Below, in pieces: positions 2,881-24,099 of a stretch of DNA of 64,000 bases (position 1 is the first letter of the stretch; each line of letters begins with the position of its first letter). The notes beneath the pieces are model-generated. The model made no database searches. It had not been told where the DNA came from and saw only the letters and a list, made by a program, of their open reading frames with translations. Made by a program: the position numbers and the translations under genes. Source of the DNA: Petrosia ficiformis (lineage: Eukaryota > Porifera > Demospongiae > Haplosclerida > Petrosiidae); the NCBI GenBank assembly GCA_947044365.1, contig OX345636.1, forward strand, positions 62,493,537 through 62,557,536. The letters are read 5' to 3'.

Positions 2881-3429
2881 AGAATTACTGTACTATAATT
2901 ATAAAGTTAAATAATTATATTAGCTAAATAAGTTTTTAAAATAGGTTTTAACTTTTTCCTTTTTCTCTGCTTTTGTCAGTAAAATATTTTAATCTTAACA
3001 TTAGTAAATTAATATGAAGCTGTTAAGCGGGAATGGGTGCATCCAATTAATAACAGGAGTAAGTAAGTGTGCATATATCACATGGCTGGGCTTTAATAGG
3101 ACCTATATGCCTGTAAATGGTCGAAGAAGAGACGACAACTATAGAATAATAATGTTTACATATAATATAATTAATATTTTTCTAACTTAGTAATAAAAAT
3201 TATCATGTTAATGATACCATTACCCAACATACATACAGTATGTATGTCAAACTGATTATTGGTTTCTGATACCCTCCCAATCTGGTTTGTGGATTTTTGA
3301 CTTTGCTATCCCATTTCTGTACATGATAATGTGTTAACTGAAGTTTCCTGAGGTGAGATTAACACATAGATTATCACATATTGTATGAATCAAGTGTTGT
3401 TCTCCATCAATTAACACATTAAATTCCAT
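2881..3429. other. Non-coding A/T-rich spacer
   Basis: No gene is visible. A weak inverted repeat (gataatgtgttaa / ttaacacatagattatc, about 3324-3376) and a stray copy of the 'atggctgggctttaatagg' motif of the following tandem repeat (about 3080) are present. Confidence 0.5.
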
Positions 3430-3759
3430 AACAGGACACAAGGTTAAGTGGCAATGGCTGGGCTTTAATAGGAACTATATGCAAACACAACGGGAATGCA
3501 CACAGTTCACACAGTTATGTATATATGAATACCAAGTTGTCCGTCCAAGGTTAAGTGGGGATGGCTGGGCTTTAATAGGAACTATATGCACACAGTTAAG
3601 CAGTATAATAATACATGTAAATTATAACAAAGTACACATGCAAACAGCTGATCCTTACCCTTGTTCCCTTGTTCTAAATTGGCACCAAGAAAGACTGAAG
3701 GCTCTTATAAACCTTCGATTATCCTTAAGCAAGACTGATAGATAGACAGCTAGATAGAG

Positions 3760-3794
<35 letters not shown>

Positions 3795-4659
3795 GGAACG
3801 TCAAATAAATGAATGAATAAGAATTATTATTGCATGTGACATCAATCACATCCAGATGATTATTACAAACTACACATATAACAGGACACAAGGTTAAGTG
3901 GGGTTTAATAGGAACTATATGCAAACACAACGGGAATGCACACAGTTCACACATTTATGTATATATGAATACCAAGTTGTCCAGGTTAAGTGGGGATGGT
4001 GGCTGGGCTTTAAATGGAACTATATGCACACAGTTAAGCAGTATAATAATAAATGTAAATTATAACAAAGTACACATGCAAACAGCTGATCCTTACCCTT
4101 GTTCTAAATTGGCACCAAGAAAGACTGAAGGCTCTATAAACCTTCGATTATCCTTAAGCAAGACTGATAGATAGACAGCTAGATAGAGAGAGAGATAGAT
4201 AGATAGATAGATAGATATAGATAGATAGATAGAAGAAGAGGAAGAGAAGAGAGAGGAACGTCAAATAAATGAATGAATAAGAATTATTATTGCATGTGAC
4301 ATCAATCACATCCAGATGATTATTACAAACTACACATATAACAGGACACAAGGTTAAGTGGGGATGGCTGGGTTTTAATAGGAACTATATGCAAACACAA
4401 CGGGAATGCACACAGTTCAAACATTGATGTATATATGAATACCTAGTTGTCCAGGTTAAGTGGGGATGGATGGCTGGGCTTTGAATGGAACTATATGCAC
4501 ACAGTTAAGCAGTATAATAATACATGTAAATTATAACAAAGTACACATGCAAACAGCTGATCGTTACCCTTGTTCTAAATTGGCACCAAGAAAGACTGAA
4601 GGCTCTATAAACCTTCGATTATCCTTAAGCAAGACTGATAGATAGACAGCTAGATAGAG

Positions 4660-4690
<31 letters not shown>

Positions 4691-4826
4691 GGAACGTCAA
4701 ATAAATGAATGAATAAGAATTATTATTGCATGTGACATCAATCACATCCAGATGATTATTACAAACTACACATATAACAGGACACAAGGTTAAGTGGCAA
4801 TGGCTGGGCTTTAATAGGAACTATTA
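3430..4826. repeat. Tandem array of a ~450-bp unit (3 copies plus partial)
   Basis: Units begin at 3430, 3880, 4340 and 4776 (periods 450, 460 and 436), each starting AACAGGACACAAGGTTAAGTGG. Each full unit holds an internal near-duplicate of 'ggttaagtgg..atggctgggctttaa', a (GATA/TAGA)n microsatellite (about 3738-3795, 4160-4240, 4640-4692) and a conserved tail. Short open frames inside it repeat from unit to unit and are not genes. Confidence 0.9.
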
Positions 4827-4828
4827 AT

Positions 4829-4918
4829 TTCCCTTATATTCATTATTGTATGGTTTTGGATTTATATTACACTTGAATTAGTTCCATGCATGCAGAAATC
4901 CAATGTACTCATAGTTAT
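4829..4918 (+). repeat. Left copy of a ~85-90 bp long-range inverted repeat
   Basis: The segment running through ATTGTATGGTTTTGGATTTA and ATATTACACTTGA.TTAGTTCC recurs in inverse orientation at 14604-14686 with high similarity. The two copies face each other across 9.7 kb and enclose the transposase gene and nearly all of the OTU-PHD-Ulp1-SET gene. I see no matching target-site duplication at the outer edges, so it may be subterminal rather than the true end of the element. Confidence 0.7.
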
Positions 4919-4963
4919 ACAATTATTATTGCATAGGATGTTAATCTAAACATTTACTCTTAG

Positions 4964-5170
4964 TGCAAACCAGACAATAAAAAAATTTCTACTTCTACTT
5001 TCATCTTCAAGAAACCTGTTCATATTTCTTCTGCTAGAAAGGTAATTAGTTTATGTAATGTGGAAATTAGTAGATATTTGCAATAATTATGTCATTAGAT
5101 GAGAAAAGGTGAAATATTGACTAGAGATGCTCTTAGAAAGGATTGTCGAAAAGGCTCAGATGACAGGCTT
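4964..5170 (+). pseudogene. Candidate N-terminal exons of the transposase-like gene
   Basis: Exon 4964-5041 (CKPDNKKISTSTFIFKKPVH...) lies between a tag acceptor and a g|gtaatt donor in phase 0. Exon 5099-~5170 (MRKGEILTRDALRKDCRKGS...) lies after a cattag acceptor, also in phase 0. They have coding-like composition and sit between the inverted repeat and the two MITEs that separate them from the 6.3-9.9 kb exons. Assignment to the transposase is inference from position and strand. Confidence 0.35.
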
Positions 5171-5246
5171 GTGATACTATGCAAATTAATTTTTTCACAT
5201 TGTATTTAATATAATATATCATTAATGTTTTTCATAATAACATTAA

Positions 5247-5850
5247 GGTGGTACTAGGGAGTGGGCGGATGCGACTCCAATCAGTTTCAAAATAGAATAT
5301 TATATAATATGACTCTAACCTGCAATCTTCATATCTTCTAATCACCTTTATAGGGTCCTGGAATTGATAAAACATATATAAAATGTCCATTTTTGCAATC
5401 TCAATAAGTACAAAACCGAGAAAGCCACGCCCACCAATCATGGCGTGCACCAAGTACAATGCATTTACAGAAAACAAATAGAGCCGTTTTCTGGAAATTC
5501 ATTTTACTTTTATAGTTACAAGAGGCTGAAGAAAGCTGAATTCTGTAGCTTTTCACTGAAACCATAAAATCTACCTTTCTAGGCACTATCAAACTCCGAT
5601 CTTTCTCAGAGAGCAACTACAGTTACCCGCCATTGTTTCCCACCCACCGCCCCCTCCACGACCCGTGGGGCGTGTTTAGGTTTGTTTCTGAAAATAAACT
5701 ATCAGTCAAAACATTTAGGCCCAATAATTATACCCCCGGGTGGGTGTGGCTTCCAAAAAATACAGAATGGAACCAGATTGTATGCAGCAAGAAGCTTGCA
5801 AGACTAGAAACTGATTGGAGTAGCATCCGCCCACGGAAAAGACTACAACC
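5247..5850. mobile_element. ~600-bp MITE with ~45-bp terminal inverted repeats, TTAA flanks
   Basis: The left end (GGTGGTACTA.GGAGTGGGCGGATG.GACTCCAATCAGTTTC) is repeated inverted at the right end (…GAAACTGATTGGAGTAGCATCCGCCCAC…ACAACC). Both sides are flanked by TTAA (5243-5246 and 5851-5854), as expected for a TTAA-specific transposase such as piggyBac. The interior is more G+C-rich than the surroundings and has no protein-like frame. It sits in what seems to be an intron of the transposase-like gene. Confidence 0.8.
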
Positions 5851-5870
5851 TTAATATTATAGGTCTATAT

Positions 5871-6290
5871 ATGTGACCGAATTTGCAAAAATCAGGCTTA
5901 TGGGATAAAATTTCAAAATTGATTTTTTGTATTACCTGAATAGAGTATTCAATTAGCTCCAGAATGATATATGATACATCCCAATCACACAAAAGACAAA
6001 GCTACAGCGGGGGATTAAACCGATGTAGTCACAAATCCTTCATTTTGAGAAAAATGCAATTAAATAATCATTAAACGTAATGACTAAAAACTTTTTTAGG
6101 AGTGGCTAGCAAAGCACAGAGATGTCTTCGAATTTCTCTGAAGGTATGAGTGAATAGGTAAGATATTAATGAAGCTTTTTATGTAGTAAAACAGTAATCA
6201 CCCGAGTAAGCCATAACTGTCTATTTTCACTCATATCTCAAAATTAATAATTATCCCAGAAGCCTGATTTTCGCAAATTCGGTCACATAT
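5871..6290. mobile_element. ~420-bp MITE, TGTGACCG family
   Basis: The left end ATATGTGACCGAATTTGC (A)AAAATCAGGCTT is mirrored at the right end (…AAGCCTGATTTTCGCAAATT-CGGTCACATAT). The inverted repeats are about 40 bp. It shares the terminal octamer TGTGACCG and inner GCGAAAATCAG with the element at 413-657. It lies only 20 bp from the preceding MITE. Confidence 0.85.
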
Positions 6291-6303
6291 GTTTGAAATC
6301 ACA

Positions 6304-6389
6304 GGTTTAATTTTGCTGCTGATGGTATCTTGAAAAGAAACAAGCTTCGATTATCTGCAACTACTCCTGTAGTAAAAAGTAAACAGTTT
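6304..6389 (+). pseudogene. Possible further transposase exon
   Basis: After an acceptor-like cacag, the frame FNFAADGILKRNKLRLSATT... is open and can end at aaaag|taaac or read on to 6466. Its Lys/Arg-rich look fits the N-terminal part of a DNA-binding transposase. Boundaries are uncertain. Confidence 0.3.
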
Positions 6390-6467
6390 TTGATAGCACA
6401 ACCCATTTTTAAATTTAATCAGCTAGACTATGTATGCACTTTCATTGGCAAATCATCAATTTTATAG

Positions 6468-9400
6468 ATGAAAGCAGCAAGTCTATAAAGTGTATGCAAG
6501 ATGATCATAAGGATGGAGATGATTCTTTCAATAGTGGTAATATATATAATTATTAATTAGATATACATATAATTCGTGCATAGAATTTATACAGCATGGC
6601 ATACTATACATTAATCCTACATTCATTACAAACCAATATAGAGCTAGCATCATATTTCATTTCAGAATAGAAATTATAGAATGCATGTAATGTGCGATAT
6701 TTCTATGACCACAGACTGGCACCTGGAAAATTTGCTTGGCTCACCAGATGATCAACCATCTATAGAAAGTAGCAAAGTAAAGATATATTATGCTACACAG
6801 TACACACATTAGTTCATGGAATGAAATGTATTATGTTATAACTATTTTACATTAGCAGGTCTCAACTAGCAATAGTGAAAGTGGTATTGTTTCATCACTG
6901 TCTGATATGGACATGTATATACATTTGCTGATAACCAATCATGAAATAGTCCCATGTGATCATTCATTTAGGGAATTTGTTGTACAGGAGTTCTCATACA
7001 CAACTTTATCACTAAAAGTTAGTACAGTGCATGCTAAAGACAATAATTATTATAATATAGTATTAATCAGTAAGTTAAAAGTTAAAACGTGGACTCTAGC
7101 AACCTAATGGCTCAATTAAGTCATTATTCTTTTCACTAATTACTTCCTTTAGCCCTACTCTTATGTATTTGTAACACGTTCTGGAAGACAATTTGAAGAT
7201 AGGAAGCATTGGTTATATACTTGCACATGTAACTCTGATAACTCACGATTGTTAAATAGTCTCAGTGCAAAGATCAATTGTGACTATGCCAAGTTTTCTG
7301 AGGATTTTCCACATTGCATTCATATCATTGCTGTTACTCACATACTGATGGAAGTCGACGCTGTGCATTGTATCACGCCTGATTTGGATTTTGAAGGTAA
7401 AGTATTATTATGCTAATAATTGTACTGTGATATGACGAAATTGTACTCTCCATAATATAGATCACAGCTATACTTCAATGAATATTGATTCAGTTATGCA
7501 TGTAAGCTATACTGTCTAATTATCCGAGAATGATTTTTACTAAGTTGCACTTTGTAATGCAGGTTACTGATTCAATCGTACAAGTTGGTAATTGTGGTGC
7601 TATTTGCCTGAAAGTAGAAGACACCTTTGGGGTTATATACATTTCTGAAGCACAATCATTACTTGTGCAACATGCAGATACAGCAAAACATCATGTAAAC
7701 ATATAATTAGTCTATTCCAAATTTTGTCAAATGTGACAGATCATGAAGACATTCCTAAAGCTTTACTGCCAATTTTTCAAGTATATTGCCAGCATAATGA
7801 AGATAAGATTCTTCCCAGACAGAGTGCACCTAGTTTATCGTGTATGTCTAAAGACAAAATTCCATTTGACCTAACAACTACCCTCTCCAGCATTCTATTA
7901 ATGCCTTCAAGTAGTAGATTCAACATTGTGGATGGTTTATCAATGCTTATACCTGAGACCACTGCAGTGTGCAATAGATGTGGACTGATAAATTGGAGTG
8001 AAGATCTTTGCTTATTCACCGGTGCTCACATAGTTACTATGAACTGCTTTGTTCAAGCTAAAGGTCTTTGTTTAACACTTAATGCATGTAAATATGGCCA
8101 CACATTCATCACGATTTATTATTATTTCAGTTTTTTACTTGAAATGCAACACTGAGGATTGTGAAGGATGCCTTCATTATGATGGAGAAAAAATGTGTTT
8201 ACTTAATATGAAGACTCTATTGTTTACATATGAGGTGCTGCGGCAATTTATGTTTCATTTCTTAATGGGAAGGTAAGATTATAATAGTCTTTGTTACTTG
8301 TTATGACATAAAATATTACTGTTGCAGGACAACTATATATACTGAATATACTGTACTTAACCAGTCATACATAGATGCTGGAAACAGCAATTTCAAAGAT
8401 GTTGTACATTACATTCATTTTTGCTCTGCATGGTATGCTTATTTGGAGCTTTTGGATATATACTATTCATGCGGGTTCCAATGCAGCAATTGTGGTCCTT
8501 ATCCTAGTTTAGTAGTCATGGATGCCACAGCTCTTTCATTTAGGAGGCAGTTTGACTTTTGGAGCAATATCTTTACAAGATATCAAGAAATTGATGAAGT
8601 AATTATTCCAAAGGGAAGGTAATAATTATAATCTCTTTCCACACCTCAACGGTTGACTTCAAAATTACACCAGTGTCCATCACATTGGTGAAATTTCATC
8701 CATTCCATAGGAAAGCTCCTCTGCTGTGGGTGCCCTCATACCTCCGATGAAAAATCTATTGCACTAATAAATCAATTATGTGATGAAGATATATTAACAA
8801 ACCCTGAGGTATTGCTAAGTACTCACACTTATTTGCATTATGAATACTAATTTTAGACACACTCACATAAAATACACATCATAATACCTTCATCATGGTT
8901 TATTATTATTAAAATTGCTGTATTAAAGATAGCAAACACGAATGCAAACTTCTTTAATTTACAGAGAATGAAACAACTCCAGGAGACAACCCCAGTACTA
9001 TTTGACTTAATCTTCGTCTTGGGTCATTATCCTTCAATTATTACACCGATATTGAAGGAAATGATCATCAAGTCCCAAGTGCCATTTAGTGTTGTGCCAT
9101 CTACTGATGATGACATCAATCTCAGTGAATCTGGAGTACTATATGATGATGAAATCAAAAACTTATGCTATTTCCCAACTCTTCCTTTAATTCGCAGAAG
9201 AAGAAACTATGAAGCAGATAGTAGTAAATGAACCATTGTCTGTACAAAACAAAATGCTGGTCACCCATCTCTTCTTCCAGGAGTTTTTACTCTTTTCTGT
9301 CACCATGGTAAATTATTGGCTTTAATTATCACAAACTTAACATTCGTCTCTACTATTCTGTAGGTATATGCTATGGATTTCAAGCCATGCGTGTACGTGA

Positions 9401-9897
9401 GTCACCAGATACACCATTCACTCTCCTATATGAACGATGTATAAAAGGTTAGCAACATTATAATTATTGTATTGGATATAAATTATACAGAACGGTTTTT
9501 TCTACTCTATTATACATAGCTCCTGAAACAATTGTTTATGACAACTGTTGCAACTCACACAACTAATGTTTAAATAGAGAACCTGATTTTTTCAGAAATT
9601 CTCAGTTTCTTGTTGATCGTTTCCATTGGTCTAATCATATAGGTACATATAATAAGTATATAAAATATTTATATTGAATCCTTGAATTACTATAAATATA
9701 CAGGTTGCAGTTGTGGATATAATCTTGCAACTTATCCACAGTTCTCATGCATAAATACTCAAGTTGTAGAGCAAGCAAATTCCACTCTCTCAAGGATAAA
9801 GTCATCTCTATCATACATGAATGCAAAGAATTTTATGAGACATTGCAAACTTTATTTATGGTACAGAAATAGATGCAAAAAACTAGGGAATTCTTAA
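6468..9897 (+). pseudogene. SWIM-finger DDE transposase-like gene (Zisupton/KDZ-like), degenerate
   Basis: About 14 exons: 6468-6536, 6715-6776, 6859-7017, 7153-7396, 7461-7501, 7563-7694, ~7740-8063, 8131-8272, 8328-8618, ~8711-8808, 8965-9307, 9364-9447, 9520-9642 and 9704-9897. Most join in phase. Exon 4 carries a SWIM-type zinc finger (TGC-x-TGT at 7222-7230, then C-x-H at 7315-7323, PHCIHIIAV). Next come Cys clusters (CNRCG; LKCNTEDCEGC; CGFQCSNCG). An RNase-H-like triad is readable: D in VVMDATAL (8521), D in VYDNCCN (9540) and E in NTQVVEQAN (9769). The copy is broken: an in-frame TGA at 9229, an in-frame TAA at 9564, and phase mismatches between the exons around 7694/7740 and 8618/8711. 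The order SWIM, Cys cluster, D-D-E recalls Zisupton/KDZ transposases and relatives automatically named HMG-domain-protein-3-like; that family name is from memory. Confidence 0.7.
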
Positions 9898-10420
9898 TAA
9901 TTCTAATTAGTTATTATCTGCTAAATTCACTTGGTAAATATTTGAAAGAATCTAATTTTGACACACACTCATAATCTCAAAAAATTAATTATATAATAAA
10001 CCCAGCACATGTTTTGAATGACATTGTGGAAAAAATGAGTTGAAGTACATAGTGACTGAAGAAGGTTTGTTACTGAATATCGGTGAAAAGCATGAAATTG
10101 GAAAGTAAATCTCTGACAATTGCCACACTTTCTTATATGATGTATTTTAATGTGCTGAGTTCATTTTTGTCAAAACTTGTAACATTTGTTGCTTCATTTT
10201 CAAGTTACAACCACTTTTGATCATTCGGCTCTTGGGTTTAAACTTAGGTTTCGGGTTTACATAAGGTTTAGCATTATATGTAAATATACTTCATACCCAG
10301 AACTCTCTTCTCACATGATTCTGATCAGTATTAACTATGACTGTATTAATATAATATTTTAAACAATCAATACTGATACAGTGATTACAAGGAAATGTTT
10401 AGCATAATGATGTACAGTTT
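9898..10420. other. Convergent intergenic spacer
   Basis: 523 bp separate the stop of the transposase-like gene from the stop of the opposite-strand SET gene. I see no further gene, only A/T-rich sequence that would hold the two 3' ends. Confidence 0.6.
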
Positions 10421-13400
10421 TCATTCTTTTAGCCAGGGGTACACAGTTGTTGCTTCCTTGCTTTTTTCTCCATAGTCATACACTAGTTCATCACCTTCAT
10501 TGATATCACTTCCAGCCATCAAGCAAATGTGTGGGTTGTTATCAACTGAAACAACCTTAGTATAAACATTGGCATGTTTCTTTGAATGGTTAAATAGTCG
10601 TCCTAGGCGGCCATCATCCTTAGTGGCATCAACACTATAGCAAATATAACACCCATTAAATGTTAAGGTATATAGTTATTATATAATCAGTACCATAATT
10701 TCTTGTTGTCAAATGTGAAGTAATACATATAGGACCCAACATCAGGACATTTAAGATACTCATTCTCTCTACTCTTGGCTTCTTTGAATGATATACACTC
10801 TCCAGCATACACACAAAGGAAGTCATCTTTCTTGAATATTCTTGTTGACACTACACCTCTACCTTTACCTTTGATGTCTACTACCATCTTCTGATTTACG
10901 CAAAACTTTATTCACATCTGAGTCATACTAAAAAAGATCAATAAATTAAGCATAATAAAATAATCTATAGCTTGCCTTCATTTCTTGAAATTTCTTCAAC
11001 CTAGAAAGTGAATTGATTAATTTGTCATACATTGCAATATCAACATTGTGGATTTAATTAAAATTTGAAAATTACAAATACTTATGTACCTGGTAACTTT
11101 GTGGGATCTAATTTCACATTCTTTCAAAATGGATTTGCGAAATGATGCTGGATTAACTTCAAATTCTTTTGCATCAATTTCACCATTTAGAAGATCATAA
11201 GGATCATGCTATACATGCACATAATAATTTATAAAATCATCAATTGAAAATCATTGGCTTACATTTGCTATAGTTATTATATTGTGGATTACATGAATCC
11301 CACAGTCAGTTCCTCTTTTTTGCATTGGAACCTATAATTATGTAATTAAAATCATGTATATAACATTGCACATACAAATACTGATGTGTACTTACAGGGT
11401 AAGGTACTGCTTTTAACTGCAAGTCTCTTAATGATGGCCAACATTGAAGTAGAGAGTCGATTCTATTAACTACTGCAATACTGTATGGAAGTACAGCAGC
11501 TGGTGATGTTGAGTCCAAAACTACAGCACTGAAATATTCATACATAAAGGACAAGCATAGAGTGAGCTCTGGTATTGCTACAATATTTCATACATGATGA
11601 AAGCACTAACAAATTTTCTTTTGTATAAACAGCAACAAGAATCCAGTGCCAGGTATTCCTGCATAATTAATATAATTAATGTTAATAAAGATAGGTAATC
11701 TTTAGTTGAATATTGCATACAGTGGATGGCAGGGAAAAAGCAGAATTGGATGTGTTACATCAAAGGCTCCATTTGTGATATTAAACTTCTTCTTTAATTC
11801 TTTTTGAGATGTTTCTGGTCCTATGCTGGCTATAGCAGTGTATGCCAGTGCTCCGGCAGTATAGTGGCATATACTTATAGGAGACACAATTCTACATGAA
11901 AATTATTAACTGTCAAGACATGTATAACAGTGTATATTTTCACATAAATCTGCTAGGTTCACCTCACATAGAAATCAACAATTAAATCACAAATTCCATT
12001 ATCAGGATACACAGATTGAACATCTGTATAACCCTCAAATGAATTGTCCGTTTTTTCCTCTGAGCCTTGATTACTCAAAAGAAATTGACCACTAACATTT
12101 CTAAATGAACATAACTTAGTATGTCATGTTCAAAAACTCACATGCAGTTAAAATGATCACTTGGAGGCTGACAACAAAAGAAAGGAATGTTGGTATCCTG
12201 GAAGTGAATACTTGATATACCAATGCATGCGCAGTGTACCAAGCACAGCACTGGTCACATTGGACCATATCATCCCTTTCCCTACCCACAGGAGCACAAA
12301 ATTTACAAATCTTGTCATATAAGACAGTGTCCTTAATGAAATATTTTGGATCACTCTGAATGTTATCCCCTTCAGTGAAATATTATTCATGTTATAGGCA
12401 GTCAATAATGGGTTGACTTACTACTATACTCTGTGGTGTTGGGAAGTAGTGGTATGGATGTGATTCATCGAACAACTACTAGACATCTTGTCAATGGACT
12501 TCACCCACATTTTATGAATAGTTGATTTGGGAGCACTAGTGGAACATGGACATGGATATACAACTGTGTCATATCCGTCTCTATATACTTCACAGTGCTG
12601 CTGGATTGAATATCCAGTTGCTCCAGCTAGGAAGAGTATTTGGAGAAGACCTGCATAAAACATTCAAAGTGAGTTTACACAAGTACAGGCAGTTTTATTT
12701 TATCACCTGAGTATGAGCCAATCTTGGATGTTGACATTATTTCATTAACTAATGCATATTTTGCAATTTCATTGACGTCCATAGATTCTGGAAGATGATG
12801 CAAAGTGGTATCAGATGAAACCACAGTTGATAGAAATTGTATTGCATGTGACACTGATGTTATCTTGGATAAAATCTATTTTTAATGAATAAGCTATAAC
12901 ACAGTAATGACAGCAAACAAAGTCAACTGACTAGCTCTATATAATGATCAAAATGAGTAACTCCTTGCACAACTGCAGAGAACCTTAAGAGCATTTCATG
13001 TTCATGTGTCCCAAATAGGCACAAACTGACGGAACCAAACAAGCAATCCCCAGTTGATGTTGTTAATGCTGGTGAGAAGCCTTCAGGTAGCTTGTTTTGT
13101 AGTAAGCGTTTTCGTCTATGTATTTTTACATTACTATCATTTGTACATTGAGCAAATTAAACATACCTCCAATCAATAACATTAACAGATTCACTGGTGG
13201 TTACTGTGGATGTTGAGAGATTTGATACATTTACCTTCGTCATTGACTCAGTAACTCTTTCTGTAAAGGCTTGCCATTGGTCAACACTATGGCACCAGTT
13301 CAATGCATCTTCAGGTGTTACTTCCTGCAAAATTAAGCATTAATAATACACTGCATGTATGTGCAAAAGTACAGTTACCTTTATTTGTGACTTGTTTTCT

Positions 13401-14904
13401 GAACAATCTGTATCAATTTCAGGTTCACTGTCATATTCACCAATACTGAATGAATATTGATAGTAACATGGCATGGTAGCAGTACATTAGTCATTATACA
13501 TTTTATAGGAATGAGGACATTTAATCATAAATGCCTTCAAAATCTTCTGCATTTCATTTGCAGTCATTCTCTTTTCGTTTTCTGCAATATAACATGGAAC
13601 CAAATTAAGTTTCAGCTAATATAATTACCTTTTGGATGGTTTGAACGTCTAAATGTAATATCATTTGGGAACCACTCAGGGCAATTCTTAGAAACATAGA
13701 AATTCCTTTTTCCTGACAACAAATAATTAAATAACAGCAAAAAAGTAATATTATAACATTAAGCTACACGTTACCATATGGATTTAGAATTCGTGGAATA
13801 ATTTTTGCCAAAATATCATTTGTGTAATTTGTTGGATTTTTAAATTTTAAGAGCATGGGCTCTTTCATCAAAGGATCCATTTCCTCATTCTTAGCTGATT
13901 TGGAAGCTATAATTAAAAAATTGAATTCAATTATGAGTTTATGACTAGAGACTTACATTCTTCAGTGAAAATATTACGTTTTAGTGCTGACTCTTTGAAT
14001 AATTCTATAACATGCTGATGTTCAGCAAAGTCACGCATGTGATCTGGACCTATCAGTTATTACATGGAGTGTAATTATATAATTTATAATTATGTTGTTT
14101 GCTCTTAAATACATAATTAGAAAAGATATTTATATTATTGTTATAAGTTATCAAGATTATACCTGACCTACCCAAACTATATGTTGACCACCCTTACTAG
14201 TACTCTTCCAGTATAGAAAACAAAAACTAGACTCACAAGGTGATGTAGAACCAAGCCAATGATTACACTGCAATACATAAGAAAGTCAAAATATTAGCAT
14301 AAGTAAATGCACTGCAACTTAATTATACCTTTTGTGCTATAGAAGTATAACATCTACTATTAATAGCATTCATCCTTTTTATCTGCATTATTGTGAATAC
14401 ATAATAACTAAATAAATAAACAAATAATTATATATATAGACCATAATTTATAATAATAATAATATAAATAATTATAATTATAATTATAAAGATTATATAA
14501 TAATATCTTGCACAGATGAAATAGGTATAATAAAATTATGCATAAGCATTGCACTTCAATTATAAAGAACAAGCATAATAACTATTGTGAAATTTTTTGT
14601 TTAGCACAACTGTGAGTACATTGGCATGGTATGGAACTAAATCAAGTGTAATATAAATCCAAAACCATACAATAAATAAAAGGGAACACACCACATCTCT
14701 TCCAACAGCTATAGATTTATTTGGTTCTACCATACTAACAGTTTGGACACTGCAATCTAATATGAATGTATATACAATAATTCTAAAAGATATTGAGCAT
14801 ACTGCATACTTCACCATACCAACATCATCTTCATCACATTTAGTAGCCTTTGGTTTAGTTTCAAGATGGTCACAAGTGGGAAGGATATTCTTCCTCTTAC
14901 TCAT
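10421..14904 (-). pseudogene. OTU-PHD-Ulp1-SET fusion protein of a large DNA transposon, frameshifted copy
   Basis: 23 exons on the minus strand, ATG at 14904, stop at 10421-10423; nearly all phases join. Order: a basic N-terminus with C/H residues (CNHWLGSTSPCPDH); an OTU-like protease (GDCLFGSVSLCLFG, Cys at 13043-13045; NH, His at 12460-12462); a PHD finger (CKFC…VQCDQCCAW, then H-x2-C); a Ulp1/C48 protease with His (HWILVAVYTKEN, 11646), Asp (VVLDSTSP, 11513) and Cys (QKRGTDCGIHV, 11302); and a KMT5A-like SET domain (GKGRGVVSTRIF, GSYMYYFTF, GRLGRLFNHS, ELVYDYGEKSK, YPWLK). Likely roles by family: removing ubiquitin and SUMO-like proteins, reading chromatin and methylating histone H4K20-like sites. 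Three one-base frame breaks are seen: near 12458 (just after the OTU His), near 12222 (inside the PHD finger) and near 10885 (just before the SET domain). One intron uses a GC donor (10975). All catalytic residues are still present, so intact relatives probably exist. Tail to tail with the transposase-like gene. Confidence 0.8.
14604..14686 (-). repeat. Right copy of the long-range inverted repeat
   Basis: Reverse complement of the segment at 4829-4918. It falls in the second intron of the OTU-PHD-Ulp1-SET gene, so exons 1 and 2 (14695-14904) lie outside the bracket. Either the element's ends lie further out or the first exons were acquired from flanking DNA. Confidence 0.7.
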
Positions 14905-14934
14905 GTTGACTTAAAACACACTATACCAATCAAA

Positions 14935-14948
14935 TTTATTATAAATAG
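14935..14948 (-). promoter_or_regulatory. TATA-like element upstream of the OTU-PHD-Ulp1-SET gene
   Basis: On the minus strand, CTATTTATAATAAA lies 31-44 bp before the ATG. The spacing resembles that of the 2371 gene, but the region is A/T-rich, so this is a weak call. Confidence 0.3.
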
Positions 14949-15084
14949 TATGCAACCACAGGAAATTAAGAAGTAATAATTGCCATAAAATTATTATTTT
15001 CCTCATAAAAAAGTGAAAAGACAGTGTAAGATGTGTTTTTAAGTAATATACAAAGCAAAAACAATTCATGACTAGTTTAGTTGG

Positions 15085-16890
15085 AGAGAAGCAGTGGCAG
15101 TTCCTTTAAATAGTTCTATAACTGGTTCCTCCGCTCTTTCTCTTTAACTAAAAATTCTACAAAGTAGATTTCCCACAGTTGTACTCACCTATATTGAATG
15201 AAAAAATGAAGTGAAGTAGATAATTATTAGGTCAAAGTATGATCATTACCAAAGAGTCTTCAGTACATAGTGTTGTGGCTTAATAAAACACCACAAAAAG
15301 TGCATACAGACACAAAGTAATAGCAAATAGACATAAATAGACAAAAAAAAAACAGACAGACAAACAAACAGACAGACGAGTTAAGTAAGGTGATTTAAAC
15401 TGCTAGACTACTGTAACAGTGATTTCGGTTCTAAACCTTTATCATGTGTTTAACTACATGTAACTAGTCTTCTTCTATAAATTCAAGATTGGAAATGAAT
15501 TGTAAGTAGACTTTGCTAGGAATCTTTTAGCTACTCACTTAACAGACAGACAGACACACACATTCACACATAATTATACTAAAATATTTTAAACTTGAGA
15601 CAATTACTGCATTGTAATGTACCATTAGAAAGTTTGCATACGCCGAAGTAAACACTTTAAAAAAAAACAATTAAGACTGTAACTACACTTACATGGTACA
15701 CTCCAGAAAGATTTAACATGTATGTATATTATATAGTTGCATCTTAAATACATTAATTTATAATGGAGTGTATTGCTATGTCTAACACATACATTCCTAA
15801 GAGACGAATATACTATACATATAGATATGACTAATATATTAATCTATTCCAACTTCTAAGGGAAGAAAGGAGTGGCACATTTAAAGCAGTTCCTTAACCA
15901 GTTACTTAGATTATATGCATAGGGTATACACACTGTACATGTAGATGTATCTATTGAATGAAGATACATGTAATTCATAACACACTATACTTATAGATAA
16001 GGGTAATATATTAACCTATTCTAACTTCTAAGGGAAGAAAGGAGTGGCACATTTAAAGCAGTTCCTTAACCAATTCCTTAGATTATATGCATAGGTTATA
16101 CATACACATACCTATATCTATTGATTGAAGACAACTCTAATATACTAGATATGACTATCTGTTCTAACTTCTAAGGGAAGAGAGGAGTGGCTCATTTAAA
16201 GCAGTTCCTTAACCAGTTCCATAGATTATACGCAGAGATTATACATACTGTACGTGTACACGTACATGCATCTATTGAATGAAGATCATTCATAACAGAC
16301 TAATATACTATACATGTACATGTAGATATGAGCAATATATTAATCTGTTCTAACCTCTAAGGGAAGAAAGGAGCGAAACATGTAAAGCAGTTCCTTAAGA
16401 GTTGCACCGGAAATAGGTATAATCATTGATCTGTAGTACAGTGTTTTAGGGCCTAGAGTAATTTGTTAAGGGAAGCAGTAGGCAGTTCCTTAACCAGTTC
16501 CTTAGATTATATGCACATACTGTACATGTATCTATTGAATGAAGATACATGTAATTCATAACAGACTATATAAACTATACTTATAGATAAGAGTAATATA
16601 TTCTAACTTCTAAGGGAAGTAAGGAGTGGCACATTTAAAGCAGTTCCTTAACCAGTTCCTTAGATTATATGCACAGGTTATACATACTGTACATGTATCT
16701 AATGAATGAAGATCACTCATAACAGACTAATATACTATACATGTAGATATGACTAATACATTAATTTGTTCTAACTTCTGATGGAAGAAAGGAGTGAAAC
16801 ATGTAAAGACATGAAAGTTCCTTAAGAATTGCACCGGAAATAGGTATAATCAGTATAGTGTTTTAGGGCCTAGAGTTTGTTGAATAATCA
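15085..16890. repeat. Irregular direct repeats with AGTTCCTTAACCAGTTCCTT motif
   Basis: A block reading roughly TAAGGGAAGAAAGGAGTGGC, then ACATTTAAAGCAGTTCCTTA, recurs near 15092, 15857, 16030, 16170, 16357, 16472, 16608 and 16780, at 110-185 bp intervals after the first. Intervening text also repeats (…TCTATTGAATGAAGATACATG…CATAACAGACTA). It lies just upstream of the OTU-PHD-Ulp1-SET gene. It could be the subterminal repeat region of the large transposon, or an unrelated minisatellite. Confidence 0.75.
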
Positions 16891-16965
16891 GTAGGGTTTT
16901 AATCTGCGTCAATAACCATGCTTGCTTCTGTTGGAATTGTTTACCCGTTGAAATAAACATAGATA

Positions 16966-17021
16966 TATTATTATTATTATTATATTTACATACACACATA
17001 ATAATTATATATATATATATA

Positions 17022-17067
<46 letters not shown>
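16966..17067. repeat. (TAT)n and (TA)n microsatellite
   Basis: A long A/T-only tract, mainly TA dinucleotides, interrupted by TAATTA. Confidence 0.9.
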
Positions 17068-17071
<4 letters not shown>

Positions 17072-17077
17072 TATATA

Positions 17078-17173
17078 GTATGATGGTGACATCATCCCTT
17101 TGGTGTGGTGAGTTCTATATATTGTATGTAGACCTTCCATGTGCACACCATGCAGGAGATGTCACCATCATAC
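17078..17173. repeat. Foldback element, 16-bp inverted repeat
   Basis: GTATGATGGTGACATC at 17078-17093 is exactly complementary to 17158-17173. It abuts the next inverted-repeat element, suggesting nested insertion. Confidence 0.8.
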
Positions 17174-17182
17174 AATATATTG

Positions 17183-17547
17183 TATATAGTATGCTAATAG
17201 GTCCTATATACTGCATATAGGACCCTTGTTTTGTGTCCTCCGATGCAATATAGCCCTCGCAGGCTCGGGCTATATCACATCCTTGAACACAAACTCAGGT
17301 CCTATATTTTGTATATACATGTAGAACCCTCGTTCTGTGTCCTCGGATGCAACATAGCCCTCGCAGGCTCGGGCTATATCACATCCTTGAACACAAACTC
17401 AGGTCCTATATTTTGTATATACATGTAGAACCCTCGTTCTGTGTCCTCGGATGTGATATAGCCCTCGCAGGCTCAGGCTATATCACATCCTTGAACACAA
17501 ACTCAGGTCCTATATTTTGTATAATGGACATATTAGCATACTATATA
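17183..17547. mobile_element. Inverted-repeat element holding three 104-bp tandem copies
   Basis: TATATAGTATGCTAATA (17183-17199) is repeated inverted at 17531-17547 (17 bp, perfect). Inside are tandem copies starting at 17233, 17337 and 17441 (GTGTCCTC.GATG…), each containing a small palindrome (TATAGCCC…GGGCTATA). The internal tandem repetition is typical of some MITEs that expand a central repeat. The two longest open frames here are the same frame repeated and are not genes. Confidence 0.8.
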
Positions 17548-18239
17548 TATATATTGTAAATATATAATATATAATTATAATAATATATATATATTGGTAA
17601 AATCATTACCCTTAGTTTAGAGAGCCAGCACACAGTTCCTTAATTAAAACTATGTAGTTCCTTCCATATGAGATTCCTCACAGGCTGAGTACACCTGCAG
17701 TTTTATTGAAACAGATTTTCTGTGATGTTAATAGATTCCTAACAGATTTTATGTAGATTCTGGAAGATGGTATATAAACTGATGATATCCTAGGGTAGTA
17801 TACGAATATGGTAGTATCCCAATTGTGTACGAGTAGAATTGTTACTGCCCCTGTAAAGTAACACGACGCCTGCAAATTAACGGTTCCTTAGATGTCGGTT
17901 CCTTGTAGCGTTTTGAGTGGTTTTAATAAGAGACCCTAGGATCGAGGGGTGTGTCTATGAATTTTAGTGAGGTTGCGTGTATTCCGGTTGACCCGAAAAA
18001 TACATAGTATTGTTGTAATTCATTGTGTATTTGTTAATTTTAAACATTAAACCAAGAAATAAAGCAAACATACAGTTTAGTAACTACAGATTCACTTATA
18101 TATGATATGGGAGCTTATATAGGCTATTGTGTGTGGTATCTTTCAAAAAAAGGGATAGGGCGAAACGGGGGATGGTCTTTGCGATTTTAATCGTCGATTC
18201 TTAATCGTAAAACAATTCGAATCAGTAAAACGATGACAA
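17548..18239. other. Non-coding, A/T-rich spacer
   Basis: Contains further scattered AGTTCCTT motifs (about 17632-17662, 17881-17908), which tie it to the repeats at 15-17 kb. No coding region is evident. Confidence 0.5.
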
Positions 18240-18376
18240 AACATCAACTTTTTATGTCCTTTACTGTATATTTCTTTTAAAAGGTAGATAATCAAAATAA
18301 TAACTATAATAGACTGTTGTGTTTCAAGCATGATAAAGTCAGCCATGAATACTGAACATTGGACACCCCAAAGCAA
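18240..18376 (-). repeat. Dispersed repeat, copy 1 (partial, inverted)
   Basis: Its reverse complement matches the start of the copies at 24545 and 45343 (GTATCCCTATGA.TG.TTT…GGCTGACTTTATCA…CAACAG.CTATTATAGTTA). Confidence 0.75.
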
Positions 18377-18660
18377 TCATAGGGATACTTTTTTCTATAT
18401 ATATTGTTAAAGTTGGTGAGAATAGACCCTATGTATTATAAGTAGATACCATCTGATTTACCACTTTTTGGGCAAAATTTACATTTGCAGATTTAATTAC
18501 GTTGTCAACAGCGCTTTTGAAACAATCCACTTCAGCTCTACACGGTTTTTATTAAAGCCAGCTAAAGCACCAATGAGACGGAAATTGTGTGGCCCACAGG
18601 TAGCGAAATAAATATGAGATGAAAGTGGTGAAGGCCATTCTGAATTCTAAGATTTGTGAC

Positions 18661-19091
18661 TTAATTAATGGCCAAATTATTATGCATCTCATGATAGTGT
18701 GTCTCAAGAAAGTGATTAAAGCAAGGTTTGCCTTTATTTAAGCTACATCCACACCCATTTTCCAAAAACATCTTAAATTTTTCGTTTTCAATTCTTTGAA
18801 GTTCATTTAAATCACATTGCACCAATTCTTCACATCCCTCATCACTCACTAGTCCATTCACCTCGTCATCTTTATCTGTTTCTATACATCCTTCCATCTC
18901 AATGACATCACATACATTTGCTAATTACTGTACATTCAATTCTTTCTTCATTGCCATTTTTGTCACCTGTTTCCATCTCAATTATATATTATCCATGGGC
19001 ATTCAATTCCAATATCTCTTGTTTCTTCTTCATTTAGATCTGAATCAGAGTCTTCATCATCTATCTCAAGCTCATCTCCACAAAAGTCTAT
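18661..19091 (-). pseudogene. Transposon-protein fragment with acidic start and C-x-C…PC motif
   Basis: On the minus strand an acidic exon-like stretch (CGDELEIDDEDSDSDLNEEE, about 19085-18985) precedes a frame starting at 18897 that ends at 18661. This 78-residue frame contains FLENGCGCSLNKGKPCFNHF. The C-x-C-x5-PC pattern after an acidic N-terminus resembles the start of a family of repeated, transposon-derived proteins of unknown function in aquatic invertebrates. The downstream part is not readable in one frame, so this is probably a truncated copy. Family recognition is from memory and is tentative. Confidence 0.4.
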
Positions 19092-20125
19092 TTTAATTAG
19101 ATGATGTGACATGGATTAATGATTTTCATTGTTTACTTTAATAAATGTAATTAAACATGCAATTAAACCATTGTTGCTTCATCAACACATTGATCTATCA
19201 ACATGTTTCACAATACGTCTTTGTGTTTCTGGCTAGTGAGCTTTTTAAAAAAAGTGTTTTCTCCTGTAGAATTATTTCGCTTCAGTCCAATAAATATTGC
19301 AATGGGTGGAACATAGGATCCGTTCATATTTTTGCATTATTACTGTCTTATCTCTGAATACAAATCCTGTATGTGTAATTACTCATCTTGGAGACACTGC
19401 TTGCATATGAGTGTTGAAAGTCTTGTATTCTTAGTCAAGATTTCGTAGATAATATTTATCCAAAAAATACAAAACTCCAAAAGTGAAGACTGACATATTT
19501 TTGCACGTTTTGGCTTCTACTGCAAACAGTTAATATGTCACTTTTGCATGTTTTGGCTTGTTTTCACATAGATGGTCACATTACTGTATGTTGCAAATGT
19601 TAAGTTATTATAATTAGACCTGGTAGATAGATTAACCCATATAATGAATCTTTTTTGTGGGGTCAATACAATACACAGATGATCTACTCTAACTAGTTGA
19701 ATAATCAATTAAACATGGAGCTGTCAACAACAATTCTTGCTTGTCGAGTTACAGTAATTATTTTGTACTTGCACATTTGATAGACTTGGAACAAGTACTT
19801 TCCTGACACAGGTACTTTCATGGCATCACATGAAGTCATACCAGGAAGGTACTCATTCCAAGTTGATTGTTGAAAATATTTTGATATTCTTCTTACAAAT
19901 AATTATAGCAGAATACATTTAGTAATTATAACTGTCATTGTGCAATCATAATACTGAATTAATGTTCGTGTTTGTGGTTATTATAATCGAGTAGAGAAAA
20001 CCTCTAGTCCTTCAAACCATAAATGAATTCTAAAAGGATAAGTATAAAATGAAATAGAATAGAAACAAAAAATAGCCTTAATTGTGTCTGCTAGTTATAT
20101 GTATAGGTGAAGTTAATCGATATGA
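19092..20125. other. No gene seen
   Basis: A/T-rich, with short open frames on both strands that lack coding bias or splice support. Confidence 0.5.
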
Positions 20126-20455
20126 TTATGTCATCAGTCTCATTCCAAGCAGGCCATTAAGAATTTTCATATCTTGTTGCATTTCTTCATATTTTGAGTT
20201 GCAAATTCCACATTGTGAGCTGCTAAATGCACCTGTGGGGCAGTGGTTGGCCAATCCTACCATGCATAGTACCAAAGATGTATATGAATGGCAGTGTTTC
20301 TCCACACACCACAATAGCTCTAAAACCTCTAGATCATCTCTTGAGTGTCTGCTCCTCTTACCATTTGTTTCAGAATATTCATGTATACTATATATTGTAA
20401 AGCTAATAGTCCCTGGATTGTCATACCTTCCATTGCCCTCTATGTCAGAGAATCT
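20126..20455 (-). CDS. Candidate terminal exon, unrecognised Cys-containing protein
   Basis: On the minus strand an acceptor (ttcatacag) at 20456 opens a 109-codon frame running to a TAA at 20126. It begins RFSDIEGNGRYDNPGTISFT and includes KRSRHSRDDLEVLELLWCVE and several cysteines (…CPTG…CGIC…). Composition looks coding, and the antisense frame of 134 codons is probably its shadow. I do not recognise the domain. It may be the last exon of a receptor or transposon gene whose other exons I cannot find. Confidence 0.35.
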   Translation of the reverse strand, partial: RFSDIEGNGRYDNPGTISFTIYSIHEYSETNGKRSRHSRDDLEVLELLWCVEKHCHSYTSLVLCMVGLANHCPTGAFSSSQCGICNSKYEEMQQDMKILNGLLGMRLMT

Positions 20456-20477
20456 CTGTATGAACTATAAATGTATT

Positions 20478-20600
20478 GATGGATAGACAAAATTGACAGA
20501 TTGATGGATGGATAGGTGGATAGATGTATGGATGGAGGAGTTGTGTCTGACTATGAGGTTGAAGAGAGTTTACATGACTGATGGATGGATTGATGAATGG
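20478..20600. repeat. (GATG/GATA)-type microsatellite
   Basis: Imperfect tetranucleotide runs (gatggatggatag, gatggatgg) over about 120 bp. Confidence 0.7.
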
Positions 20601-23187
20601 GTCAGGAGGAAATTGTGCAATAGCTTCTAAAGCATGCGCAAATGAAAACAAATTGACTAACACTGAGAATGGTTGCTACTCAAAAAGGAAATTTCAAAGC
20701 AGCTAGAATGTTATTGAAACTAGCACTACCTATTACTATTGCTACTGAAAGTTTCATTTCCAGTTCACTATAGTAAATCTGGGACTGTTAGAATTAGCTT
20801 AAGAGTTCCTGAACCCTTAAATAAAAGCAACACACCTATTGATATGATGCAGTTGATGCTTTTGTCAATAACGTGTTCAATAATACAGTAATGTTTAATG
20901 AATGATTACTTCTTAAAACATATGGATTTGGATGACAGCTTATTGATCAATATTGAAGATTGAGAGATGCTTGAAGATTGAGAGATGCACAAATTGCAAT
21001 AGCAATGTGGTGATTAATAATAGACAGATAGGAACAGTATAACTTGTGATGATTATTGATAATGAGAGATGCATAATTATAGATTAATTAGTGAAGGAAC
21101 TTGTCTGCTAGGTAGGACTTAACTTGTGTTTATCATCAAAAGTTCGTATCAGGTTCTTTATTGTTCAACAAGGTAGAGCTGTGTGAATTATAGGACTAGT
21201 CATTTTCATAATTCTAGCTTAAATCTGATATAACATAATATTAATGTTATGAATTCTGGTGTTACAAATGAACTACCAATACACTTTAAATGATACAAGG
21301 ATGAAATGCTTTTTTAAAGCGATGACAATATTTATAAGTCATGCGGTTTCACAATTTCAGTAGACTTCCAGACACAGAGACACATAAAACAATTAACACT
21401 AACCTTCTTCGGCATGTGGGAAGATTAATATTTTCTACAGTTGAAGGACTAATGAATTCTCTCCTTGTGTTTATGTAATCCATGATGGAATAATGATATA
21501 GGTGGAGCTAGAAAGTGACTATATAAGCTTAGATCCAGTGCTGATGTTGTTGTCTAATCATAAATATAATTCATTCCTGATTTGTAATGTGTATACGGAA
21601 TAGAAAGCTACATGAATAATTATTTTTCACGTTATACAATTTACATTTCATGAAAACATACTTTATTACATAGTACTGAACATGTACAAAATAGCATAAG
21701 TTACAATTATTAACACATCAGAGGTGCAACCTAACTTTTTGAAAGTCGTACAAGCACTCTACCTCCAAGATGTTACACCCTTTAGATAACATGGTGGAAT
21801 TACAATGAAGAAAATGCACTGAGTGCTAAATATCCATCTAGTACATAATATCGGCAGTCAGTATATCAAAGAAACCCAAGCATAATTAAAAAGATTAGAT
21901 TCATTGCATGCCTAATTGTTATTGTAACTTTCCAGATTGTAACTATAGATAACTATAATTATAGTACTGTGTGCCCATTAATTATAAATCAGTTGAGTGT
22001 TTGTGTCACATTAGTTTCTCTTTTCATACTGGTAAAAAGTATTTTTGCTTGTAATTTGATTCAATAACTATGCTCCCAGTAGATGTGATACAGTGTAATG
22101 AAATTTTACATGTATCCTTGTAATTATAATAATTATTATTATACTGATTGAACACTAAATTCTTTCAGTAATGATGACAGAGGAAATGGAAAAAAAACGC
22201 CAGTAGTCACTGAGAATCTATCACAGGGCCTCTGACTTCAGCCACAAGTGCTCTTACTATGACAACCACCAGCACTTGAATAACCTCTATGTACTGCATG
22301 AGTGGAGTACTTGAATATGAGCCGAGGTCAGCAAAGCATTAGCAAAGTTTTGATTCATACTGTAATTGGGGTTTTAAAAGTTGAGAAGGAATGTCTTCAT
22401 TTCATTCACTATTTCACTATTTTGTAGACTAAACTAGCTCAATTCATTATAACTGAAAACAAAGTAATTTCCATTGATTTTATATATAGCAATCTCTCAC
22501 ACTGAAAAATACAATTGTTAAAATAACAAATGTATGAGTTAGCACAGTTGCAAGGATGTAAATTATAATTTAATTTGTCAGTCATACAGGTTTCTATGTA
22601 CCAATTATCATCTAATTAGATGCACAAGAAAGGTTTGGAAAACATACAATGATTTAATTAAAACATTTATTTTGTTTCTGTGTACACCTATTAGGCAATG
22701 TATAAGATGTCACTTTGCAGCTGTAATATATAAAGAATAAATTATAACTTATTTTAACTATTTACATTGATATTGTAGCAGTTTATTCAAATTTGAATTC
22801 TTCTGCAACAAGGAACTGCTCACAATTTTGCTATGTGTATATCCTGGCATATCACTGCAAAAAATAGTTTGGCTTTTTTAACCAATAATTTGATAACGTG
22901 AAATGATGTCACCATTTAGTAATGAGTTTATTCAACAACTATATAATTATCTAATTTCAGTATCACAGAGGTAGTTGGTAATCTTAGTTTTAGTGTTAGA
23001 ATGGTATCGACTGACATATGTTTTTTTTTTAACCTATTAATGAATAATTCCTTTGAAGCTTTCATTGTAAATGGGTGCCTCAATCAGATAGATACCTGCT
23101 AGCAGGTATCTAAATCTAATAGATACCTAGGTCCAAAGCTCAAGGAAACAATTTTGTTAATGAGAGAATAAATACATTAACACGAAA
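20601..23187. other. No gene seen in 2.6 kb
   Basis: A/T-rich. A short segment at about 21275-21360 is similar to 47945-48060 (shared 'aaatgatacaag' and 'tttcacaa.ttt' blocks), so it may be an old dispersed repeat. Confidence 0.5.
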
Positions 23188-23828
23188 TTAAATATAAGAA
23201 AGCTGAATACAATAATATACAAAATACAGTTCCTCATCACTGGCTAGAATGGGTTCAGCCTGCTTCTTCTTTGTACCAACTCCTTGTGAAAGTAACTGCT
23301 TCATTTCACTATCTAACACATTCTTCAGAAAAAAGAACTTACGATCAGAGAAAAAATCAATGGCCTCCTCCCGCAGATAACACTGAATGCCACACAGAAT
23401 CTGTCTAAGTTCATCTCTTAATTCATTATCTATCTTAAGCCACTCCTTACTATTAGCAGGAGGGAAAAGGAGCTTAGGTAAGCGCCGAAGATCGGTATAA
23501 TCATTATTGGCATACTGCCGAGCATCTGAATGAACTAAAACCTGATGCTCACCCTCAGCACAGTGTGTGATAAGCTGGCATTCATCAGGTGAGGTTGACT
23601 TACTGAGGAAGATGTCCTCAGGCAATGAAACAGGTTGTTCAATCATAACAGATCCATCAGGTTCTACAAGAGAGGACTCAGACAGCAACTCAGACTGGAG
23701 AGAAATTGGATTTGGAACAGATGGTGGGAGACTTTGTGCCTGAAATCTTGTAAGAGGACCTCTGTTCCTAGGTGCTTGTACAGGCAAATCAAGTGGCTTA
23801 CTGACTCCTTTTTGAGAGTCATCATATG
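23188..23828 (-). pseudogene. Open frame of ~212 codons, probable retroelement ORF fragment
   Basis: After a gttgcag acceptor at 23829-23830, one frame is open to 23188. The N-terminal half is Pro/Ser/Glu-rich and low in order (PVQAPRNRGPLTRFQAQSLP...). The C-terminal half contains LPKLLFPPANSKEWLKIDNE and a Leu/Phe-rich segment, then a Lys-rich stretch. The phrase L.FP.AN.KEW...D..L resembles the region upstream of reverse transcriptase in invertebrate LINE-like ORFs. I cannot see an RT or endonuclease motif. The length without stops is well above chance for this composition. It could instead be an exon of a host gene. Confidence 0.4.
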
Positions 23829-23849
23829 CTGCAACAGGAAATGAACGCG

Positions 23850-23851
23850 AA

Positions 23852-23916
<65 letters not shown>
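23850..23916. repeat. (GA)n microsatellite
   Basis: About 65 bp of GA/AG repeats with few interruptions, immediately upstream (minus-strand sense) of the preceding open frame. Confidence 0.9.
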
Positions 23917-24099
23917 TACACATTATGATACTCGTACATGAGAGAATGAGAAAAGTGAACTGGGAACACGCAAATGAATGTAAAGTTTGCAGTCCATCCC
24001 AGAGAACACATGGTCATTGCATACTAATTAATTATAATATTATAATTATAAGATTCATATTGTCACTCAGAGAATGATCACAACAACAATCTTTCCTAA

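Follow-up and report, generated by a model that had tools for sequence, protein, structure and literature searches.

The stretch of DNA analysed here, which we call the window, comprises 64,000 nucleotides of the sponge Petrosia ficiformis (positions 62,493,537-62,557,536 of contig OX345636.1, hereafter C1, a sequence of 63.28 Mb within a 191-Mb genome) and contains two converging genes of what is very probably a decayed DNA transposon. The first, on the plus strand, is a transposase gene of KDZ kinship (6859..9897), with coding frames of splice-like borders running from 6859 to 9894 in about 12 exons and a stop codon at 9895-9897. The second, on the minus strand, is a partner gene (10421..14904) that begins with an ATG at 14904 and descends through about 24 short exons to 10424, with its stop codon at 10421-10423. 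Exon borders of both genes were placed by eye and the proteins were spliced by hand. A preliminary description of this DNA had proposed a tail-to-tail gene pair separated by 523 bp, and this is exactly the length of the intergenic gap (9898..10420). Scanning of the gap with bacterial-type models detected no terminator and four promoter-like sites, where 3.5 would be expected.

Both genes are damaged. The transposase gene carries frame breaks near 7647 and within 8716-8808 and a stop at 9564-9566, while the partner gene is broken within its PHD finger (near 12236) and ahead of its SET domain (near 10890). These breaks are copy-specific, since lengths at the break places differ among the other copies described below; the transposase stop at 9564-9566 is common to five of eight copies and lacking in three. 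Residue-by-residue reading of the window bears out the earlier statement that both genes are broken and yet retain their catalytic residues. The transposase keeps D 8521, D 9540 and E 9769; the Ulp1 domain of the partner keeps H 11648, D 11515, Q 11322 and C 11304; its SET domain keeps N 10591 and Y 10474; and its OTU-like part keeps C 13045.

A probable KDZ-kindred transposase and a four-domain partner

A protein search with the transposase matched 18 relatives, with E values down to 4.7e-102, from molluscs, a jellyfish, a fish, a lancelet and an acorn worm, together with sources lacking a name. The best relative is 36% identical across 97% of transposase residues 150-748. One relative is labelled 'HMG domain-containing protein', and there is a likeness to vertebrate HMGXB3. 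The Pfam KDZ model (PF18758) matches 10 of the 18 relatives and the CxC4 model (PF18717) six of them, and a profile built from the relatives gives the window transposase a score of 451 bits while reporting none of 22 controls. Because it is the relatives that match the KDZ model, and not the window reading itself, we assign the transposase to the KDZ kindred by way of these relatives. Searched against the whole genome, the KDZ model gave 25 matches, none of them at this transposase family; the CxC4 and CxC5 Pfam models gave no direct match at this locus in a search of the genome, and an NCBIfam scan of the transposase returned no match. Canonical KDZ (PF18758) matches lie elsewhere in the genome, at C1:14.52-14.61, C1:40.9 and C1:49.3 Mb and on C2 and C3.

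In the alignment of transposases, both aspartate columns are invariant in all 12 rows. Eleven rows extend to the VEQ(A/S)N motif, and 10 of these have its glutamate, P0008 being the row that differs. Judged from the family, these D, D and E are the predicted catalytic residues. A SWIM-like cysteine cluster, CxxC...CxH (7664..7702, plus strand), precedes the core, in the manner of the CxC-type clusters of KDZ transposons, and is kept in eight of eight copies, and a second cluster, CxC...CxH, lies at about 7220-7320. The earlier label of a SWIM/DDE transposase is to be corrected as regards the kind of transposase, which is probably KDZ. Two further identities were considered and rejected: the MULE transposase model (PF10551) of MULE/Mutator elements matches the genome 40 times and the window not once, and for Ginger1 the Pfam scans returned no integrase model and the proteases sit in a separate, convergent gene.

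The partner gene encodes, in order, a leader, an OTU-like domain, a PHD finger, an Ulp1 domain and a SET domain, and these differ in how firmly they can be named. The SET domain (10424..10890) is of KMT5A/SET8 type, with its NHS and YDYGE motifs kept (Pfam E 1.1e-18); against PDB sequences it matches KMT5A/SETD8 at E 2.2e-38. With KMT5A as its closest relative and the catalytic residues present, it is a predicted methyltransferase. The Ulp1-type (C48) protease domain (11260..11895) is recognized by Pfam (Peptidase_C48, E 6.4e-6) and keeps its H, D, Q and C. The PHD finger (12144..12320), with the frame break inside it, falls below the Pfam cut-off at E 0.012. The OTU-like domain (12427..13117) contains a GDCLF motif with the cysteine at 13045; a profile drawn from two families gave OTU domain-containing protein 1 (OTUD1) as the better of two PDB matches, at an E value of only 0.017. 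The Pfam OTU model matches neither this partner nor that of a diverged locus described below (L018), and the catalytic histidine of the OTU-like domain was not located; the OTU assignment is weak, and OTU activity doubtful. Of the OTU-PHD-Ulp1-SET order first proposed, SET and Ulp1 are recovered by Pfam, with PHD below the threshold and OTU weakly placed. A protein-database search with the partner protein, bound by length and word limits, gave no match at E 0.001, and one with the Ulp1-SET part gave two SET proteins only, one of them named from a fungus; no relative of the four-domain protein was therefore found outside this genome. A possible host KMT5A gene is found on C14, away from any transposase match.

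Copies of the gene pair and their long terminal repeats

A genome search with the minus-strand protein, in which the best 48 of 170 candidates were scored, returned at least 122 matches, which show the partner gene in no fewer than eight near-full copies. Seven lie on C1, namely cA (0.39 Mb), cB (1.04 Mb), cC (1.55 Mb), cD (1.70 Mb), cE (1.80 Mb), the window (62.5 Mb) and cG (63.0 Mb), and one, cF, lies on C12 (3.13 Mb); a diverged partial copy, cH, is found at C1 24.24 Mb and a fragment, cI, at C1 0.86 Mb. For each of the other seven full copies, 20 kb around the gene was retrieved. In the window and all seven others the transposase gene converges on the partner gene, and the transposase is covered over 639-748 of 748 query residues in those seven. 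Pairwise DNA identity among the eight copies is 98.0-99.2%, with the C12 copy farthest from all. The preliminary description had named two findings that would speak against a transposon, genes never found together elsewhere and a minus-strand gene that is a single-copy conserved host gene; neither was obtained.

An inverted repeat of 45 nt (4843-4887 and 14631-14675, 98% identical) had been noted around most of the gene pair. This repeat is real, but it is no more than the innermost part of a far longer one, and the element therefore exceeds the interval 4829-14904 first given as its limits: its right end lies at about 17930, and its left end is truncated in the window. What is left of the left terminal inverted repeat is the innermost 88 bp (4829..4916), the outer part being lost in the window copy, whereas the right terminal inverted repeat spans 14608..17927 and contains two arrays, one with a unit length of about 172 bp (15807-16855) and the other with one of about 104 bp (17214-17523). 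Sequence from 14608 outward recurs in inverted form beyond the transposase gene in all seven other full copies, reaching 16.8-17.9 kb in window numbering within the bounds of the fetched stretches. Inside those stretches the left arm extends outward by 2.5-5.7 kb in the seven copies, in each of which the best arm-to-arm stretches, of 1.6-3.2 kb, are 87-94% alike.

The outermost 24 nucleotides of the repeat (17904..17927, plus strand) are also present at eight other copy ends. Allowing up to three mismatches, this 24-mer occurs at 14 places in the genome and its reversed-pattern control at none. Assigned by hand, nine of the 14 places are ends of the copies described here, two lie at lone arm pieces (C1 16.86 and 38.73 Mb), and one, an exact match, lies on C13, where no other match was seen; the two on C3 fall into none of these groups. 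The fuller element ends read ATGTATTAAAACC...GGTTTTAATACAT. In cA, cD, cE and cF the outer ends are separated by 19.1-22.8 kb, with two of the four distances known approximately, which gives an element size of about 19-23 kb between the outer ends of the other copies. Similar alternative forms of the terminal bases occur on left and right ends across cA, cB, cC, cD, cE and the window, as would result if sequence were converted between the two ends.

The first two exons of the partner gene (14695..14904, minus strand) are located within the terminal inverted repeat. Both the ATG exon and exon 2 are found in each arm of all seven other full copies, and the ATG and exon-1 frame are open in 14 of 14 arms. 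With start exons in both arms, one start exon also points at the transposase gene, which may feasibly use this repeat-borne exon as its own.

An insert at 5246..6287, resembling a miniature inverted-repeat transposable element (MITE) and bearing two inverted-repeat pairs of 28 and 40 nt, is absent from that place in the seven other full copies. A 622-nt piece of it recurs in the right arm of cE (90% identical) and a part recurs, by eye, in the sequence flanking the C12 copy on its left; it perhaps belongs to a MITE family. Tandem units of 440-470 bp occupy 3428-4828, immediately beyond the truncated left arm. Farther along the window, a minus-strand open frame of 688 amino acids (41104-43170) resembles what we take to be a ROCO-type GTPase host gene.

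Segmental duplication, mobility and the recurrence of the gene pair

Comparison of right flanks, with 6 kb examined and the best 40 of 4224 candidates scored, revealed that those of the window, cA, cB, cC, cE, cG and cI match piecewise over most of the 6 kb at 92-99% identity. All full copies but the one on C12, seven of eight, are grouped toward one or the other end of C1, in mirrored orientation. Given the shared right flank, the window and six other loci are segmental duplicates, derived by duplication of the C1 ends rather than by separate jumps. The flank itself (window 17928-24000) is a subtelomeric segmental duplication found at both C1 ends at seven loci, and other repeats of about 75% identity recur close to these ends.

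This pattern would be expected if two old neighbouring host genes or pseudogenes within a subtelomeric block had simply been multiplied by segmental duplication, with no transposon involved, and the broken, neutrally evolving state of the copies agrees with such an origin. We nevertheless hold it to be highly unlikely. The long inverted repeats stop at one terminal sequence amid different flanks; outside the duplicated C1 block there are a full copy, on C12, and stretches of repeat arm, at two places on C2 and on C8; the plus-strand gene is related to DDE transposases; and the convergent pair is present in diverged families on C1, C2, C3, C6 and C13. Indeed, the C12 copy has different flanks on both sides, with its left end stopping at the common terminus and its right end stopping short, inside the repeat. 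One of the C2 arm places adjoins a transposase whose best matched part is 88% identical. At C2:2878154-2879563, a repeat arm 88% identical to that of the present element directly adjoins a diverged transposase fragment (63% identical in amino acids), an odd mixture of the close and the distant.

The common right flank could also mean that the mobile unit is larger, extending from 17928 to beyond 24000 with the inverted repeats internal to it. Sharing of this flank by seven loci, and the differing left flanks of cA, cE and cB/cG, are compatible with a larger unit. We regard it as exceedingly improbable, because on the right both the C12 copy and cD pass directly into different sequence, the flank of cD being unlike those of the C1 duplicates, and because one terminal sequence marks the left limit of cA, of cD and of the C12 copy.

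Recurrence of the gene pair was traced in a genome search that took the last 151 residues of the transposase as its query, the matches being merged into loci by hand. Beyond the eight copies this gave 18 transposase loci, most of them 33-64% identical to the query, with a close one at C2 2.51 Mb (up to 88%). A partner match lies within 6 kb at 12 of the 18, against 0.02 expected by chance, and all 12 pairs are convergent. At locus L018 (C1 60.17 Mb) the partner is 33% identical and has the same succession of an OTU-like part, PHD, an Ulp1 part and SET; Pfam recognizes SET (1e-14) and C48 (2.4e-4) there, and PHD only at E 2.9, the PHD-like Cys/His stretch of the window partner having a similar counterpart. 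With L018 as the query, three further loci match from the OTU-like start through SET, two of them close to it and of the same family (C1 10.44 and C3 3.32 Mb) and one of another family (C6 4.99 Mb). Since the four-domain order is common to diverged families, the gene predates these families and has stayed with this transposase.

Taking the copies, ends and pairing as a whole, we consider the mobile unit to be, with high probability, a decayed autonomous KDZ-kindred cut-and-paste transposon with long inverted repeats and two convergent genes. The sequence shows directly the unit with its ends and copies, and shows that the two genes are paired again in diverged families. The initial reading as a composite DNA transposon is upheld by the eight of eight convergent copies, the long inverted ends and the pairing at 12 of 18 loci. 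The proposal that paralogues should share the arrangement within common ends holds for the convergent pair in all seven other full copies; no intact copy was found, each copy bearing lesions, and the target duplications are imperfect. Its left end lost and both of its genes broken, the window copy is dead.

Several observations, the segmental duplication among them, weigh against a transposon of this kind. No perfect target-site duplication was found: the best candidate, CTGATAAG (left, cA) against CCGATAAG (right, cB), agrees in seven of eight bases, pairs ends of two different duplicates and depends on a border chosen after looking, and cD, the sole copy with both termini readable, shows no target duplication match. 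The window transposase has no direct match to the Pfam KDZ model. No partner match was obtained at six of the 18 further transposase loci, eight of 20 partner-like loci lack a transposase (several of these may be host SET genes), and the 12 pairs are not fully independent, three being close copies of one family. The L018 partner has serine in place of the OTU catalytic cysteine, and its Ulp1 catalytic cysteine was not located. Finally, substitutions among the eight copies fall almost evenly on nonsynonymous and synonymous sites, with a ratio of 0.95 in the transposase (61/1623 vs 20/507, p 0.89) and of 0.84 in the partner (67/2146 vs 25/674, p 0.46).

Every copy bears lesions, either private or common to subgroups, and all eight now decay neutrally, without detectable constraint. 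The past of the partner gene appears to have been different. Comparison of the OTU-PHD part with the diverged copy at C1 24.24 Mb gave a ratio of nonsynonymous to synonymous differences (pN/pS) of 0.42 (29/946 vs 21/290, Fisher p 0.003), which suggests that the gene was constrained before its decay. Noncoding divergence from the same copy (18/412) lies below the synonymous-site level, and the evidence for past constraint is thus somewhat weakened.

These data bear on whether the partner matters to the transposon at all, as a KMT5A-type fusion gene may have been captured between the repeats of a KDZ transposon as a passenger with no role in transposition. Such a passenger is suggested by the six transposase loci without a partner match and by the protein search for transposase relatives, which yields no gene neighbours, and the function of the partner is a predicted one. 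We think a passenger unlikely, given that the OTU-like-PHD-Ulp1-SET order is retained at 33% identity with three further loci matching end to end, that pN/pS was 0.42 before decay and that the orientation is identical in 12 of 12 pairs.

A possible role for the partner, and comparison with known systems

If the transposon is as we have described it, its DDE transposase would cut and join element DNA, and the start exons, and presumably a promoter, carried in both arms would place both genes under one regulatory sequence. PHD fingers are readers, Ulp1 proteases are deSUMOylases and SET8 enzymes write methylation at H4K20. The PHD finger may therefore bind the partner protein to nucleosomes, where the Ulp1 domain (and perhaps the OTU-like domain) would strip SUMO or ubiquitin and the SET8 module would monomethylate H4K20, so that the element or its landing site is kept permissive for expression, repair or integration. 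This would be akin to what has been proposed for the TET/JBP genes that KDZ elements of fungi carry. For both genes here, splicing, expression and enzyme activity are predicted, and sequence cannot by itself distinguish opening of chromatin from aid to repair or hiding of the element. That the partner protein has some role in transposition or anti-silencing has, in our estimation, a probability approaching an even chance. Only tentatively, and at somewhat less than that, can it be proposed that an old animal KDZ lineage bears its own enzyme, at once nucleosome reader, remover of SUMO or ubiquitin and writer of H4K20 methylation, with its starts duplicated in the terminal repeats, which opens or protects the insertion site or hides the element.

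Should this be true, the phenomenon of transposon-borne epigenetic enzymes, represented by fungal TET/JBP and oomycete SET genes, would extend to an animal KDZ lineage, with an enzyme acting on SUMO or ubiquitin and on histone H4 together. It would provide a testable case of a transposon that writes chromatin itself, and its diverged natural variants could teach which of the partner domains matter.

The host KMT5A/SET8 H4K20 methyltransferase is small and has none of the OTU, PHD and Ulp1 domains; its SET module is alike (E 2.2e-38), and the partner described here adds the OTU-like, PHD and Ulp1 domains. In its layout the element recalls MuDR of maize, which has two convergent genes with their 5' ends at the two inverted repeats. 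Convergent genes starting at inverted repeats are thus common to both, whereas the transposase and helper of MuDR are unrelated and its repeats short.

The nearest comparison is with KDZ elements such as platyfish Zisupton and the TET-carrying elements of fungi, with which the transposase shares its kindred through the PF18758 and PF18717 matches of its relatives. Excerpts of PMC12730594 describe fungal KDZ elements (Dileera/Kyakuja/Zisupton) that carry TET/JBP genes, so that an extra gene for an epigenetic enzyme rides on the element in both; the enzyme here, however, would be a fusion resembling a histone methyltransferase and a SUMO protease, and not a DNA dioxygenase. Terminal inverted repeats are likewise common to Zisupton and to our element (all seven other full copies, the left one being lost in the window), while the 8-bp target duplication of Zisupton and Dileera elements, given for Zisupton in the same excerpts, is here only possible, at seven of eight bases. 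Unlike these KDZ elements, the present one has kilobase-long inverted repeats with shared start exons and lacks a direct match to the Pfam KDZ model.

Other transposons carry the same domains in other settings. SET histone methyltransferase genes are reported on oomycete HarbingerS and MuDR elements (PMC12730594), and the likeness extends to the SET gene on a DNA transposon, the transposase superfamilies and the host being different. Ginger1 transposases have OTU, Ulp1 or Ulp1 with PHD as C-terminal parts (PMC2836005), so that these domains occur in an animal transposon protein as they do here; yet there they form the tail of a Gypsy-integrase-like transposase, with SET unmentioned in the excerpted text, and here they stand in a separate, convergent four-domain gene beside a KDZ-type transposase. 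A search of 5.39 million open full-text papers turned up none that names such a four-domain gene on a KDZ element, in keeping with the preliminary description, whose author knew of no such combination. OTU, Ulp1, PHD and SET are each known on other transposons; a four-domain partner carried on a KDZ element would be new.

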